DNA of 33,772 nt. Origin: Clostridia bacterium (GTDB lineage Bacteria > Bacillota > Dehalobacteriia > Dehalobacteriales > Dehalobacteriaceae). Positions within the stretch are counted from its first letter, which is position 1. The number at the start of each line of letters is the position of its first letter. This document shows, piece after piece, positions 3,635 through 30,110 of the stretch. The position numbers were made by a program, and so were the translations under genes. The notes beneath the pieces were generated by a model. The model was not told the origin of the DNA, ran no database searches, and worked only from the letters and a program-made list of their open reading frames with translations. The stretch spans positions 1-33,772 of the forward strand of contig DUPU01000039.1 in NCBI GenBank assembly GCA_012838175.1. Direction: 5' to 3'.

Positions 3635-6600
3635 GTGAGATGCTGGAGTATGCCAATGATCAAGGTTTATCATAACTCTCATGATACTTACTATCGGAAT
3701 CCTTTCGGGGCGGTTCCTTTAGGTACTCCGATTAAATTGAAAGTAAAAGTCATCGCAGATATCCCGGTGCAAGATTGTGTGCTCCGCTTGTGGGAACAAG
3801 GCTGCAGAGAACGTCTAATAAATATGAATCTAATAAAGATAAAACAGCAAGGGGAAAAAATTTGGCAGCTCTTTGAAACTACGTATACTCCGCCGGAAGC
3901 GCCGGGTTTGGTTTGGTATTATTTTCGTATAAAAATAGATAATAGATTTTTTTTCTACGGAAATAATAGGGAAAACCTGGGGGGAGCAGGAGAATTAAAA
4001 CTGCATGAACCTCCTTCCTACCAGATTACGGTTTATAAACCCAGCCCTGTGCCTCGGTGGTTTAAGAATGGCGTAATGTACCAAATATTTGTGGATCGTT
4101 TTTGCAAAGGCGAGGATGAGGCCTTGACCCCTGGAGTAAAAGAGAGTATTGCCCGGGAAAAAGGGCTTCTCCATCTAAACTGGTATGATACACCCTTTTA
4201 TTTGAAAGATGACAAAGGGCGCATTAGGCGATGGACATTTTTTGGTGGAAATTTGGCCGGGGTAAGGGAGAAACTGGATTACCTTCAGGAGTTGGGTATC
4301 AGTATTATTTACTTTAATCCCATTTTCGAAGCTGTCAGCAATCATAAATATGATACGGCTGATTATTTAAAAATTGATGGGATGTTCGGGGATGAAAAAA
4401 TCTTCCGAGAGTTGATTCAGGAAGCAGGGGAAAGGGGAATTTACGTTATTTTAGACGGGGTATTCAGTCATACCGGGTGCGACAGCATTTATTTCAATCG
4501 ATGCGGTCGTTTTCCGGGAAAAGGGGCTTATCAGTCGCCGGACTCACCCTATGCCAAATGGTACACTTTTCTGGATGATTGTCAAACTTATGCCTGTTGG
4601 TGGGGGGTTGATGATTTGCCAAATGTGAATGAGATGGAGCCCTCTTACCGCGATTTTATCTACCGGGGAGAAAACAGCGTAATACGCCACTGGATGAAAA
4701 CCGGGGTTAAAGGCTGGCGCCTGGATGTGGCAGATGAGCTTCCCGATGATTTTATTAAAGAAATTCGGATATTTTTAAAGGCGGCAGATCCGGAAGCAGT
4801 ACTTATCGGAGAGGTGTGGGAGGATGCTTCCAATAAAATTAGTTATGGCAAGCTAAGGGAGTATCTTTGGGGAGAAGAATTAGATTCAACGATGAATTAT
4901 CCTTTAAGAAGCATTTTTTTAGATTTTATGCTGGAAAAAAAGGATGCTTTTGTGACTCATCGTCGAATAATGAGCCTCTACGAAAACTACCCCCGGGAAA
5001 ATTTTTATGCTGCCATGAATTTAATTGGCAGTCATGACCGGGAAAGAATTCTTACTTTATTGGGTGAGGCTCCTGATGCTGAAAAATTAACGGAAAGAGA
5101 AAAAGAGAAATTTCGTCTGGAAGGAACGGCCCGGAAATTAGGGATAAAGAGGCTGAAGCTATTGTCTTTAATGCAAATGACTTTTCCCGGAGTCCCTTGT
5201 ATCTATTATGGGGATGAAGCAGGGATGGAAGGATATGCTGACCCCTATAATAGAGGGACATATCCTTGGGGTTTCGAGGATCAGGAGCTTATTTCTTGGT
5301 ATAAAAGGATCATTCGCTTGCGCCGGGAATATGGGGTAATTCAAGAAGGTGAGTTTTCCTCTTTTTATCAAGGCAAAGATGTTTACGGTTATCGACTGAA
5401 AGGTATTTCGGAAGAAATTATGGTTATAATCAACAGGAATACTTCCCTGGGGAGGAAAGTCAAGGCTGACTTTCTCAGTGCCCGGGAAGAAAAAAGCCTG
5501 GTCTTGGATCTGTTAGAAGGGAAGGTTATAGAAGATAAAGATATTGGAATATGGAATATTCCCCCTTTGGGAGGGCGTGTGCTTTATCGGAAGAGCCTGG
5601 AAAATTACGATCCTGCTAAACGTCAAATGCCAAAAGGATGCGGGGTGCTTCTTCATGTAACATCATTGCCGTCTCCTTGGGGAGTAGGGGATTTGGGTGC
5701 AGAAGCTTACCGTTTTATTGATTTTTTAGCATCCACCGGTCAAAATATCTGGCAGGTGTTGCCTCTGGGTCCCCCCGGACTGGGTCATTCCCCTTATCAG
5801 AATTATTCTGCCTTTGCCGGTAATGATCTTTTGCTGGATATCGATCAATTGGTAAGGGAGGGGCTATTAAGCCAGGAAGAGGTAAACGAGGAATTGGGAT
5901 TAATACAAAAGAAGATTAGGAATCAGGAAAAGGCAGATTTTTATCTAGCGGAAAAAAGCAAGGTTGGGCTTTTTCGAAAAGCTTATCATCGGTTTAATAG
6001 ATTAATGGAAGCCGGCCGGAATAATAAAACAGAGTCGTCCTTTCTTTCCTGGGATAATTTTTTAAAATTTCAGGAAGAAAACAGGTTTTGGCTGGAAGAT
6101 TATTGCCTTTATGCCGCTTTGAAAAGATATTATGACTATGCTCCCTGGTATTTATGGGATAAAGATATTGCGGAAAGAAAAGAAGAAAGAATGGTTTATT
6201 ACCGGGAAAAACTCTCGGATGAGATAAGTTACCAGTGCTTTTTACAATATACATTTTTAACCCAATGGCTTAATTTGAAAAATTATGCCCATGGGAAAGG
6301 CATTCTGATAGTAGGGGATTTGCCCATTTATGTTTCATCCGACAGTGCAGATACCTGGGCAAACCGTGAATTATTCTTTTTAGACCCCAAGGGATATCCT
6401 TATAAAGTGGCCGGTGTTCCTCCGGATTACTTTTCAAAGACGGGACAACTCTGGGGAAACCCTATTTATCGTTGGGAAGAGGCAGCCAAAGACGGTTATC
6501 TTTGGTGGGTAAAGAGAGTTAAGTTCAGCTTAAAAATGTATGATTATCTTCGGTTGGACCATTTTCGGGGGTTTGAAGCATTTTGGGCTGTGCCCGGGGG

Positions 6601-7090
6601 TGAAGAAACTGCTGTTAACGGGGTTTGGTTAAAAGGACCGGGGAAGAGATTTTTTGAAACCCTCTTTAAGAATATAGGGGATTTGCCCTTTATTGCTGAA
6701 GATTTAGGCTTGATTACGCCTGAGGTGCGCAACCTTAAAAACCTTTTCGGTTTTCCCGGAATGAAGGTTTTTCAGTTTTCTCCCCAAATAACAGGTGCAG
6801 GAGATACAAATTTTGTATATTACACAGGAACCCACGACAACGATACTTTAGTCGGGTGGTGCCGGAAACAGCCTCAAAAATATGATTATAAGGTAATTAT
6901 GGAAGAAATATATCAAAGTAACGCAGCTTGGGTAATCGTTCCCATGCAGGATATTTTAGGACTGGACAGTGAAGCCCGCATGAACATCCCCGGTACCGTT
7001 TACGGTAACTGGGAGTGGCGGTTGGATAAATCCTTATTGACGGAAGAGGTTGGCAGGTGGCTTTCTGAAATGGCCCAGGCCAGACCCTAA
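3635..7090 (+). CDS. Fused alpha-amylase family glycosidase (GH13) / 4-alpha-glucanotransferase (GH77, MalQ-like)
   Basis: Single 1151-aa ORF. N-half: NGVMYQIFVDRFCKGE, GWRLDVADE, LIGEVWED, NLIGSHDRERI. C-half from about 5620: GCGVLLHVTSLPSPWGVGDLG, LRLDHFRGF, PFIAEDLG, YTGTHDNDT. True start may be an ATG at 3650 or 3656. Confidence 0.92.
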   Translation: MRCWSMPMIKVYHNSHDTYYRNPFGAVPLGTPIKLKVKVIADIPVQDCVLRLWEQGCRERLINMNLIKIKQQGEKIWQLFETTYTPPEAPGLVWYYFRIKIDNRFFFYGNNRENLGGAGELKLHEPPSYQITVYKPSPVPRWFKNGVMYQIFVDRFCKGEDEALTPGVKESIAREKGLLHLNWYDTPFYLKDDKGRIRRWTFFGGNLAGVREKLDYLQELGISIIYFNPIFEAVSNHKYDTADYLKIDGMFGDEKIFRELIQEAGERGIYVILDGVFSHTGCDSIYFNRCGRFPGKGAYQSPDSPYAKWYTFLDDCQTYACWWGVDDLPNVNEMEPSYRDFIYRGENSVIRHWMKTGVKGWRLDVADELPDDFIKEIRIFLKAADPEAVLIGEVWEDASNKISYGKLREYLWGEELDSTMNYPLRSIFLDFMLEKKDAFVTHRRIMSLYENYPRENFYAAMNLIGSHDRERILTLLGEAPDAEKLTEREKEKFRLEGTARKLGIKRLKLLSLMQMTFPGVPCIYYGDEAGMEGYADPYNRGTYPWGFEDQELISWYKRIIRLRREYGVIQEGEFSSFYQGKDVYGYRLKGISEEIMVIINRNTSLGRKVKADFLSAREEKSLVLDLLEGKVIEDKDIGIWNIPPLGGRVLYRKSLENYDPAKRQMPKGCGVLLHVTSLPSPWGVGDLGAEAYRFIDFLASTGQNIWQVLPLGPPGLGHSPYQNYSAFAGNDLLLDIDQLVREGLLSQEEVNEELGLIQKKIRNQEKADFYLAEKSKVGLFRKAYHRFNRLMEAGRNNKTESSFLSWDNFLKFQEENRFWLEDYCLYAALKRYYDYAPWYLWDKDIAERKEERMVYYREKLSDEISYQCFLQYTFLTQWLNLKNYAHGKGILIVGDLPIYVSSDSADTWANRELFFLDPKGYPYKVAGVPPDYFSKTGQLWGNPIYRWEEAAKDGYLWWVKRVKFSLKMYDYLRLDHFRGFEAFWAVPGGEETAVNGVWLKGPGKRFFETLFKNIGDLPFIAEDLGLITPEVRNLKNLFGFPGMKVFQFSPQITGAGDTNFVYYTGTHDNDTLVGWCRKQPQKYDYKVIMEEIYQSNAAWVIVPMQDILGLDSEARMNIPGTVYGNWEWRLDKSLLTEEVGRWLSEMAQARP

Positions 7091-7207: not shown

Positions 7208-8638
7208 CTATAGATCGTAGTAGAGAGCGAACTCCGCCGGATGGGGAATCTGATTAAACCATTTGACTTCTTCCCGTTTCTTTTCCAGCCAGATTTCTAT
7301 TAATCGTTGGGAAAAAACATTTCCCTTCAATAGAAATTCGTAATCCTTTTCCAAAGCGTTCAGAGCTTCTTCCAGGGATCTTGGCAGGGATTTTATTTTT
7401 GCCTGCTCTGCTTTGGGTAAATTATACAAATTGGTATCATAAGGACCAAATCCGAGGGCTTCCGGGTCCATTCCCTTTTCCACCCCGTCTAATCCTGCCA
7501 TTAAAATGGCTGAAAAGGCATAATATGGGTTGCAGGTTGCATCAGGGCAGCGGATTTCAAAACGTTTTTGATCCGGAGTTCGGGCATAATCCGGAATGCG
7601 AATGACAGCACTGCGATTGGCGGTAGCATAACAAATGCTTACCGGAGCTTCATAACCCGGTATCAATCGTTTATAGGAGTTTGTGCTGGGATTGGTAAAA
7701 GCTAAAAGAGCAGGGGCATGGGTCAATAACCCTCCGATAAAGCTAAGGGCGATCTTGCTCAATCCGGAATAACCGTTGGCATCATAAAACACCGGTTTTC
7801 CCCCTTTAAACAGGTGAATATGAACGTGCATGCCGCTTCCGGCCTCACCAAACAGGGGCTTTGGCATAAAAGTAACGGTTTTGCCATTATTAAAGGCATG
7901 GTTTTTAACGATATACTTAATAAGCATGGTTTTATCGGATAATTCCCGCAAAGGGCCGGATTCCACTTCAATTTCCGATTGTCCGGGGCCTCCTACCTCC
8001 GGATGATGGTATTTAATGGCTACCCCTCGTTCTTCCAACAGAAGGCACATTTCACTTCTCAAATCGTAAAGTACATCCATGGGAGGGGCGATATGATAGC
8101 CTCCTTTTAAAGGAACTTTATAACCCCGGTTTTGTTCATTATTAATAGGCGTATTCCATTCAGCTTGTTCCGCATCGATAACAAATCCGGTGGAATGGGG
8201 TTTAGTTTCATAACTGATATGATCAAAGACATAAAATTCAAATTCCGGGCCGATCCGCATTTCATCCGCAATGCCCGAGGATTTTAAATATTCTTCTGCA
8301 TTTGTAGCTACGTTCCGCGGATACTGTTCAAACCGACGGTGCGGGTTACCGATAATATATACATCCCCAATCATAGATAAGGTGGGGGTTTTGACAAAAG
8401 GATCTAAAAAAGCAGTGGAGATATCAGGGATAAATACCATGTCGCTTTTTTCTACCGGGGCGAAGCCGTAGTTGGAGCCGTCAAAGCCAATTCCCTGAGT
8501 CAGAGTTTGATCAGAAAATCGTTCAACGGGAATGCTTAAATGACGCCATCGGCCCCAAATATCGATCATTTTGAAATCAATGATTTGAATATGATTGCTG
8601 GTACAATAGTTTTTGACTTCATCAAGTGTTTTAAACAT
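7208..8638 (-). CDS. glnA: Glutamine synthetase type I, GSI-beta-like
   Basis: 476 aa; FDGSNYGFAPVEKSDMVFIPD, KGGYHIAPPMDVLYDLRSEMC, GSGMHVHIHLF, NPSTNSYKRLIPGYEAPVSICYATANRSAVIRIPDYA, DTNLYNLP, C-term HPAEFALYYDL as in enterobacterial GS. Confidence 0.9.
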   Translation of the reverse strand: MFKTLDEVKNYCTSNHIQIIDFKMIDIWGRWRHLSIPVERFSDQTLTQGIGFDGSNYGFAPVEKSDMVFIPDISTAFLDPFVKTPTLSMIGDVYIIGNPHRRFEQYPRNVATNAEEYLKSSGIADEMRIGPEFEFYVFDHISYETKPHSTGFVIDAEQAEWNTPINNEQNRGYKVPLKGGYHIAPPMDVLYDLRSEMCLLLEERGVAIKYHHPEVGGPGQSEIEVESGPLRELSDKTMLIKYIVKNHAFNNGKTVTFMPKPLFGEAGSGMHVHIHLFKGGKPVFYDANGYSGLSKIALSFIGGLLTHAPALLAFTNPSTNSYKRLIPGYEAPVSICYATANRSAVIRIPDYARTPDQKRFEIRCPDATCNPYYAFSAILMAGLDGVEKGMDPEALGFGPYDTNLYNLPKAEQAKIKSLPRSLEEALNALEKDYEFLLKGNVFSQRLIEIWLEKKREEVKWFNQIPHPAEFALYYDL

Positions 8639-8678
8639 TGTAATCCCCTCTCTTGTTGAAAAAAGTTAACCTTAATAT

Positions 8679-8705
8679 ATTCTGCAAAATTAAATAATAT
8701 CCTCT
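8679..8705 (-). promoter_or_regulatory. Putative sigma-H promoter of the minus-strand glnA
   Basis: Minus strand AGAGGATAT (8705-8697) -N11- GCAGAAT (8685-8679); exact match to RNAGGAWWW-N11-RNNGAAT, 40 nt before the start codon. Confidence 0.65.
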
Positions 8706-8745
8706 AAAATTTTTCCTGCACTGCCAGAATTATATACATAATGTT

Positions 8746-8773
8746 TTGAATTTCGACAAATTTCTGGTATAAT
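8746..8773 (+). promoter_or_regulatory. Putative sigma-A promoter of the plus-strand glnA
   Basis: TTGAAT (8746-8751) -N16- TATAAT (8768-8773) with extended -10 TGG. Confidence 0.7.
8752..8759 (-). promoter_or_regulatory. Putative Spo0A box
   Basis: Plus TTCGACAA = minus TTGTCGAA, perfect 0A-box consensus, inside the -35/-10 spacer of the plus glnA promoter. Confidence 0.6.
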
Positions 8774-8836
8774 GGGAGAAGTTATAATATTGCTAATTCT
8801 TTATAAATTAATTTATTTTTTGGGGGATGAGAGTTT

Positions 8837-10168
8837 ATGTCAAAGTATACCAAGGAGGAAATTCTTTTAAAGGTTAAAGAACACAAGATAAAATTTGTTC
8901 GTCTTCAATTTACTGATATTTTCGGGGTTTTGAAAAATGTTGCAATTACTGATAAGCAACTGGAAAAAGCTTTAAACGGGGAAATGATGTTTGACGGGTC
9001 ATCTATTGACGGTTTTGTTCGAATAGAGGAGTCAGATATGTATCTAAAGCCGGATATAGACAGCTGGGCAATTTTTCCTTGGTGTTCATCAGAAGATGCC
9101 GCCGCCAGATTTATTTGCGATATCTACCGGGCTGACGACACTCCCTTTGAGGGGGATCCCAGGGTAATATTGCAAAAAGTTATTGCCGAAGCAGAATCCA
9201 TGGGATATACCATGAATGTAGGTCCGGAATGTGAGTTTTTCCTTTTCCATACGGACGAAAAAGGGGTTCCCACATTGGAAACCCACGACAAAGCAGGGTA
9301 TTTTGATCTGGCTCCTGTAGACTTAGGAGAGAATGCCCGGAGAGATATGATTTTAGCTTTGGAAGATATGGGTTTTGAAATTGAAGCATCCCACCATGAA
9401 GTTGCGCCCGGTCAGCATGAAATTGATTTTAAATATGCGGATGCCTTAACTACAGCCGATAATATTCAAACTTTTAAACTTGTTGTGCGTACCATCGCTC
9501 AGCGTCACGGACTGCATGCAACTTTTATGCCGAAACCTATTTTTGGGATCAATGGTTCCGGAATGCACGCCAATCAATCCCTTTTCAAAAACGGGAAAAA
9601 TGCTTTTTATGATCCCAACGGGGAGTTAGGCCTTTCTGAAGATGCCTATTATTATGTGGGGGGATTAATGAAGCATGCAAAGGCTATTGCCGCGGTGACA
9701 AATCCTACGGTAAATTCCTATAAAAGGTTGGTCCCCGGCTATGAAGCACCGGTTTACGTAGCCTGGTCCGGGCAAAACAGAAGCCCCCTTATTAGAGTTC
9801 CTGCCAAAAGAGGAGTTTCTACCAGAATAGAGTTGAGAAATCCCGACCCCTCCTGCAATCCTTATTTAGCTATTGCCGTAATGCTGAAAGCCGGATTGGA
9901 TGGAATAAAGAATAAAATCATGCCCCCTAAGCCGGTTAATTGTAATGTTTATGAAATGACTTTTAAAGAAAAAGAAAGTTTGGAAATTGAAAGCCTTCCC
10001 GCCAGTTTGGAAGAAGCAATAAAGGAATTAAAAAATGACCCTGTAATTTTAGATGCTTTAGGACCCCATGCCGCAAAAAGATTTATTGAAGCTAAAGAAT
10101 TGGAATGGAAAGATTATAGCTCAAAGATTACCCAGTGGGAGATTGACCATTATTTAACAAAATTTTAA
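8837..10168 (+). CDS. glnA: Glutamine synthetase type I, GSI-alpha (Bacillus-type)
   Basis: 443 aa; [77 protein letters not shown], short form with C-term [10 protein letters not shown]. Confidence 0.97.
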
Positions 10169-18626: not shown

Positions 18627-18634
18627 TTGTCGAA
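18627..18634 (+). promoter_or_regulatory. Putative Spo0A box upstream of prs
   Basis: TTGTCGAA, perfect 0A-box; 15-nt context AAATTTGTCGAAATT is the reverse complement of the glnA-site context. Confidence 0.6.
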
Positions 18635-18639
18635 ATTAA

Positions 18640-18666
18640 ACAGGATATCATTAATGAAGGTAGAAT
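18640..18666 (+). promoter_or_regulatory. Putative sigma-H promoter of prs
   Basis: ACAGGATAT (18640-18648) -N11- GTAGAAT (18660-18666); exact consensus match. Confidence 0.65.
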
Positions 18667-18718
18667 AAAAACAGGGTATGAGTTATTGCTACTACTATTG
18701 GGAGGTAGTTAATTTATT

Positions 18719-29911: not shown

Positions 29912-29929
29912 CTATAAGAATACTTATAG
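29912..29929. promoter_or_regulatory. Perfect palindromic operator-like site upstream of exporter
   Basis: CTATAAG-AATA-CTTATAG; related TATAAGAATATTCTATA at 29962-29978. Confidence 0.5.
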
Positions 29930-29952
29930 GATAAAAAGTAAAAACGGCGAAT
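29926..29952 (+). promoter_or_regulatory. Putative sigma-H promoter of the YeiH-type exporter
   Basis: ATAGGATAA (29926-29934) -N11- GGCGAAT (29946-29952); exact consensus match. Confidence 0.55.
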
Positions 29953-30110
29953 TATATAAATTATAAGAATATTCTATATTGATTATAATTATAAAAGTAT
30001 AACATGCGGGAGGTGAGTGTTATAGACAATTATAAGTTTAACAAATGATAAAAATGTGAAAGCGGCTACAAGTACAGGAAAAAATTAAAATTATTAAAGG
30101 AGGTTATGGA

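Follow-up and report, generated by a model that had tools for sequence, protein, structure and literature searches.

A divergent pair of glutamine synthetase genes with a probable sigma-H promoter before the GSI-beta-like member in a Dehalobacteriaceae genome

RESULTS

The divergent genes and the gap between them

The window (the whole stretch of 33 772 nt that was analysed) contains two divergent type I glutamine synthetase (GS) genes, separated by a 198-bp intergenic gap (8639–8836). They are the only type I GS genes in the assembly. The minus strand carries a GSI-beta-like gene (GS-beta; 7208–8638, 476 aa) that matches TIGR00653 with 540 bits, and the plus strand a GSI-alpha gene (8837–10168, 443 aa) that matches the same family with 586 bits. 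The best solved relatives of GSI-alpha belong to the 7tdp, 7tfa and 4lnf class, which we take to be GS of the Paenibacillus, Bacillus and Staphylococcus type. Those of GS-beta are 3ng0 and 1hto/2bvc, presumably cyanobacterial and mycobacterial-type GS respectively. GS-beta is closest to the cyanobacterial, mycobacterial and enteric GSI proteins, and the alignment reveals the tyrosine of the NLYxLP segment; on both counts it belongs to the GSI-beta class. It is 82% identical in protein sequence to GS-beta of G002, one of the three other genomes of the family (G001, G002 and G003). The preliminary description of this DNA had assigned both proteins to these classes, and the nearest solved structures agree.

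GSI-alpha is preceded by a sigma-A-type promoter with an extended −10 (8746–8773, plus strand), comprising TTGAAT (8746–8751), a 16-bp spacer and TGG-TATAAT ending at 8773, and matching the consensus at 10 of 12 positions in addition to the TG motif. An exact 0A box, the 8-mer TTGTCGAA (8752–8759, minus strand), lies within the −35/−10 spacer. On the minus strand the putative sigma-H promoter of GS-beta (8677–8705) is an exact consensus match, with the −35 AGAGGATAT at 8705–8697, 11 intervening nucleotides and the −10 GCAGAATAT at 8685–8677, 38 bp ahead of the GS-beta ATG at 8638. The 0A box is 46 bp from its −35. Direct reading and pattern scans place all three elements, and the spacing between the last two, where the preliminary description had put them. 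That description lacked a further candidate, a sigma-A-type promoter into GS-beta (8729–8756, minus strand) formed by TCGAAA (8756–8751), N16 and TATAAT (8734–8729), which is a consensus match only (10 of 12). The −35 elements of the two divergent sigma-A-type promoters overlap head to head, and the 0A box lies on both.

The sigma-H promoter of GS-beta

The consensus used was RNAGGAWWW-N11-12-RNNGAATWW, located upstream of a gene and on the same strand. The site in the gap conforms to it in sequence and orientation, and the chance of such a match per 198 bp is 0.0006 under an order-2 model of intergenic DNA. No match was found on the plus strand of the gap, so sigma-H control of GSI-alpha was dropped.

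Genes for SigH (378.8 bits), Spo0A (413.6 bits) and SpoIVA, a spore protein, are present, and this uncultured organism is therefore very probably a spore-former; among its named relatives a Desulfitobacteriaceae MAG is the nearest. The sigma-H consensus is used well above chance, with 63 matches in the whole genome versus 9 for a reversed control pattern. About 870 kb, covering 56 matches to a slightly stricter pattern, was examined by region. Intergenic DNA makes up only ~10% of this sequence but contains 39 of the 56 matches, and 32 of these 39 aim at a gene start at most 250 bp away; the densities are approximate because the contigs were picked for holding matches and the gene calling was crude, a bias from which the count of 63 versus 9 is free. 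Under the order-2 intergenic model 0.26 intergenic matches are expected in 86 kb, and 37 are observed. Most related genomes have a like excess.

Upstream regions of GS-beta were inspected in two overlapping sets, 15 from related genomes and 35 named loci, among which only that of G002, the nearest, resembles the window. Conservation is thus one comparison, since only two genomes carry such a region. In G002 AGGATATT is identical, and G.AGAA occurs at the same spacing and at a nearly equal distance from the ATG. The −35 is kept in place, but only part of the −10 is, with GAAA where the window has GAAT, so the G002 promoter may be weak or decayed. The upstream regions of other lineages have sigma-A-like TATAAT starts. 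GS-beta of G002 keeps these elements at a locus unrelated to that of the window, and the promoter would therefore travel with the gene. With the genome-wide enrichment and the −35 retained in the closest relative, the sigma-H promoter proposed in the preliminary description is very probably real, and transcription of GS-beta by sigma-H is supported.

The range of sigma-H targets

Sigma-H matches in this genome precede dnaX, mreB, fhs, murA, ddl, dapB, coaD, hisD, prs and acsV, as well as genes for fructose-bisphosphate aldolase/phosphatase and carbamate kinase. This is not a sporulation-only set. In Sporomusa sphaeroides 322 sigma-H starts have been mapped, 16% of all starts, including those of acetogenesis genes, and the same breadth of targets is predicted for Moorella and Carboxydothermus by motif searches (PMC12456013). 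The resemblance to the broad SigH regulon of S. sphaeroides KIAC extends from AGGA/GAAT promoters before many metabolic genes to the Wood–Ljungdahl genes, which are among the SigH targets there and of which acsV and fhs bear a match here. The main text of that study does not mention glutamine, however (PMC12456013), and the promoters of the window are predictions. Since the consensus precedes many housekeeping genes, sigma-H at GS-beta does not imply sporulation. The timing at sporulation onset originally suggested for GS-beta is thus not borne out, and the set of targets suggests expression from growth into the transition phase.

The window contains a third exact sigma-H match (29926–29954), 156 bp before a gene whose product (586 aa) weakly matches the YeiH family.

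The 0A box

The 0A 8-mer is expected 0.003–0.007 times per 198 bp (models of order 0–3), and at least two copies occur in 24 of 100 dinucleotide shuffles of the whole window. Intergenic regions contain 8 copies versus 1.2–3.2 expected. Two of the 8 are parts of sigma-H −10 elements, among which TGTCGAATA is common in this genome, and the other six stand against the same expectation of 1.2–3.2; a sizeable share is therefore chance. The box in the gap is weakly above chance. The idea that it forms the −10 of a further sigma-H promoter was rejected, since no AGGA is suitably spaced from it on its strand. One of these six copies precedes spo0A itself, which fits the known autoregulation of spo0A, though this copy may also overlap a sigma-H-like −10. 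In C. difficile there is a 0A box upstream of spo0A, and perfect boxes had predictive value for Spo0A binding in vitro (PMC3485338). Like the direct targets in that organism (PMC3485338), the gap has a perfect TGTCGAA core within ~120 bp of a start codon, and with Spo0A encoded in the genome it is a candidate target; unlike theirs, its box is a predicted binding site, and it is not conserved in the nearest relative.

The prs promoter of the window (18627–18668, plus strand) provides a positive control. Here 5 bp separate a perfect 0A box from the sigma-H −35 that follows it, and each of the four genomes of the family has TGTCGAA a few base pairs before a sigma-H-like AGGA/GAAT promoter of prs. 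Conservation of this composite in four genomes indicates that a real Spo0A/sigma-H site would be detectable, and the GS site fails the same test, which at the gap comprises one aligned relative. At the aligned position G002 reads TTGTATGTA, so that conservation of the box, which the preliminary description had made a touchstone, is absent there. None of the other GS-beta upstream regions inspected has the box at the equivalent position, nor does any of the GSI-alpha promoters of the relatives examined; the GS-alpha spacer of G003 has a degenerate TGCCGAA. An orthologous divergent pair was not found in the loci examined. The prs promoter is the stronger Spo0A/sigma-H candidate.

These data bear on the isoform switch put forward initially, in which Spo0A~P binds the box and blocks GSI-alpha, and sigma-H activates GS-beta as sporulation begins; the overlapping sigma-A-type start of GS-beta would perhaps be blocked too. 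A perfect box on both divergent sigma-A-type core promoters, a genome that encodes Spo0A, the predictive value of perfect boxes in C. difficile (PMC3485338) and the recurrence of the 15-mer AAATTTGTCGAAATT of this box at the conserved prs promoter all speak for it. They are set against the missing box in G002 and at other GS promoters (save the degenerate G003 sequence), the share of copies attributable to chance, and a distance of 46 bp from the sigma-H −35 where the family's conserved prs case has a few base pairs. Such a switch is unlikely. Moreover, a box lying on both −35 elements means that bound Spo0A would be expected to block both promoters and not to choose one. Blocking both would leave sigma-H free to transcribe GS-beta, a residual case for a switch that we consider doubtful. 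Of the initial proposal the part that stands is sigma-H reading into GS-beta; the part assigned to Spo0A~P, for which there is neither a conserved box in G002 nor, in the loci examined, an orthologous divergent pair, is unproven and unlikely.

At spoIIG-class promoters the 0A box overlaps the −35, and the spacing is 21–22 bp. Spo0A might similarly activate GS-beta from the minus-strand TCGAAA-N16-TATAAT, whose −35 the box overlaps. The 16-bp spacing differs from that of the class and the box is not conserved, which makes activation of this kind highly improbable.

Origin of the pair and the ANTAR leader

In G001 the GlgX/4-alpha-glucanotransferase (amylomaltase) gene lies directly before GSI-alpha, with ~177 bp between them, and is followed by GSI-alpha, lipB-like, dapF, ispE and on to spoVG, glmU and prs. 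The order in the window is the same except for GS-beta, which stands between the amylomaltase gene (3635–7090, plus strand) and GSI-alpha. On the simplest reading of this gene order GS-beta and its upstream region were inserted beside GSI-alpha in this lineage, and the divergent pair would be lineage-specific.

The GSI-alpha leader of the window is short (8774–8836, plus strand). Targets of ANTAR proteins have a signature hairpin whose hexaloop has A1 and G4 (PMC3369931). A simple hairpin scan found no such hairpin in the leader of the window, and found hexaloop hairpins in the GSI-alpha leaders of eight relatives (G001, G002, G044, G005, G046, G048, G045 and G053). Those of G001 and G002 are GGGC-hexaloop-GTCC with A and G as the first and fourth loop nucleotides, and in G001 a terminator-like stem comes after the hairpin. 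Not every relative has the hairpin; the same scan found no canonical example at the main GSI-alpha copy of G003. Weak Rfam matches at the GS-alpha leaders of relatives were set aside as chance-level, and an Rfam scan of the window gave no matches at the gathering score. Of 18 genomes searched, 13 have ANTAR genes, among them the three other members of the family (2–4 each), and one such gene lies right before GSI-alpha in G002, G003 and several others. This genome has no matches, in an assembly of 232 contigs that is 96% complete, so that a gene could fall in a gap. The relatives resemble the known antitermination of nitrogen genes by ANTAR proteins (PMC3369931), with the A1/G4 hairpin at GSI-alpha and in several cases the adjoining ANTAR gene, whereas GSI-alpha of the window has neither. 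Nitrogen control of glnA seems to have been rewired in this genome. Developmental control could have taken its place at the new head-to-head pair, with Spo0A~P silencing the assimilatory GSI-alpha and sigma-H raising GS-beta; this is improbable.

DISCUSSION

The account we favour, and regard as likely taken as a whole, combines a lineage-specific insertion of GS-beta, its expression by sigma-H and a GSI-alpha read by sigma-A without an ANTAR leader. A rearrangement would have brought in the GSI-beta-type gene together with a sigma-H promoter of its own, placing both between the amylomaltase gene and the GSI-alpha gene already there. GS-beta would be read by sigma-H RNA polymerase from 8677–8705, with a possible contribution from the sigma-A-type start at 8729–8756, and probably belongs to a broad sigma-H regulon whose activity extends from growth to the transition phase and is not restricted to sporulation. 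GSI-alpha would be read from 8746–8773 with no attenuator, having lost the ANTAR antitermination leader by which relatives tune it to nitrogen. The 0A box probably has a minor role at best, or is an accidental match. Searches of the open-access literature found no description of a glutamine synthetase under Spo0A or sigma-H. If sigma-H activity sets the level of GS-beta, nitrogen assimilation would be tied to the sigma factor that governs the transition phase, and loss of the ANTAR attenuator would illustrate one way for another form of regulation to take over from nitrogen control at glnA. In bacteria of this kind sporulation control should not be read from a sigma-H promoter alone.

GS-beta might alternatively serve nitrogen storage, with sigma-H driving both this gene and the synthesis of cyanophycin for spores. 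In G002 the gene is convergent with cphA-cphB-iadA, and this genome has the same cph cluster, which both here and in G001 has an exact sigma-H match upstream. The site in this genome adjoins a separate small gene, however, a terminator-like stem stands before iadA, and GS-beta (on C204) and cph (on C148) do not share a contig. A role of this kind is very unlikely.

The cyanophycin loci themselves are arranged as follows. The G002 locus (L251, 8497–14699) comprises GS-beta and, convergent with it, the genes for cyanophycin synthetase, cyanophycinase and isoaspartyl dipeptidase. In the present genome a small zinc-ribbon-like gene lies ahead of iadA-cphB-cphA, and the sigma-H promoter (L267, 7539–7567, minus strand) precedes that gene. 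The sigma-H sequences upstream of the other clusters are an exact match in G001 (L264, near 7349) and a near-match in G003 (L265, near 7710), both on the minus strand.
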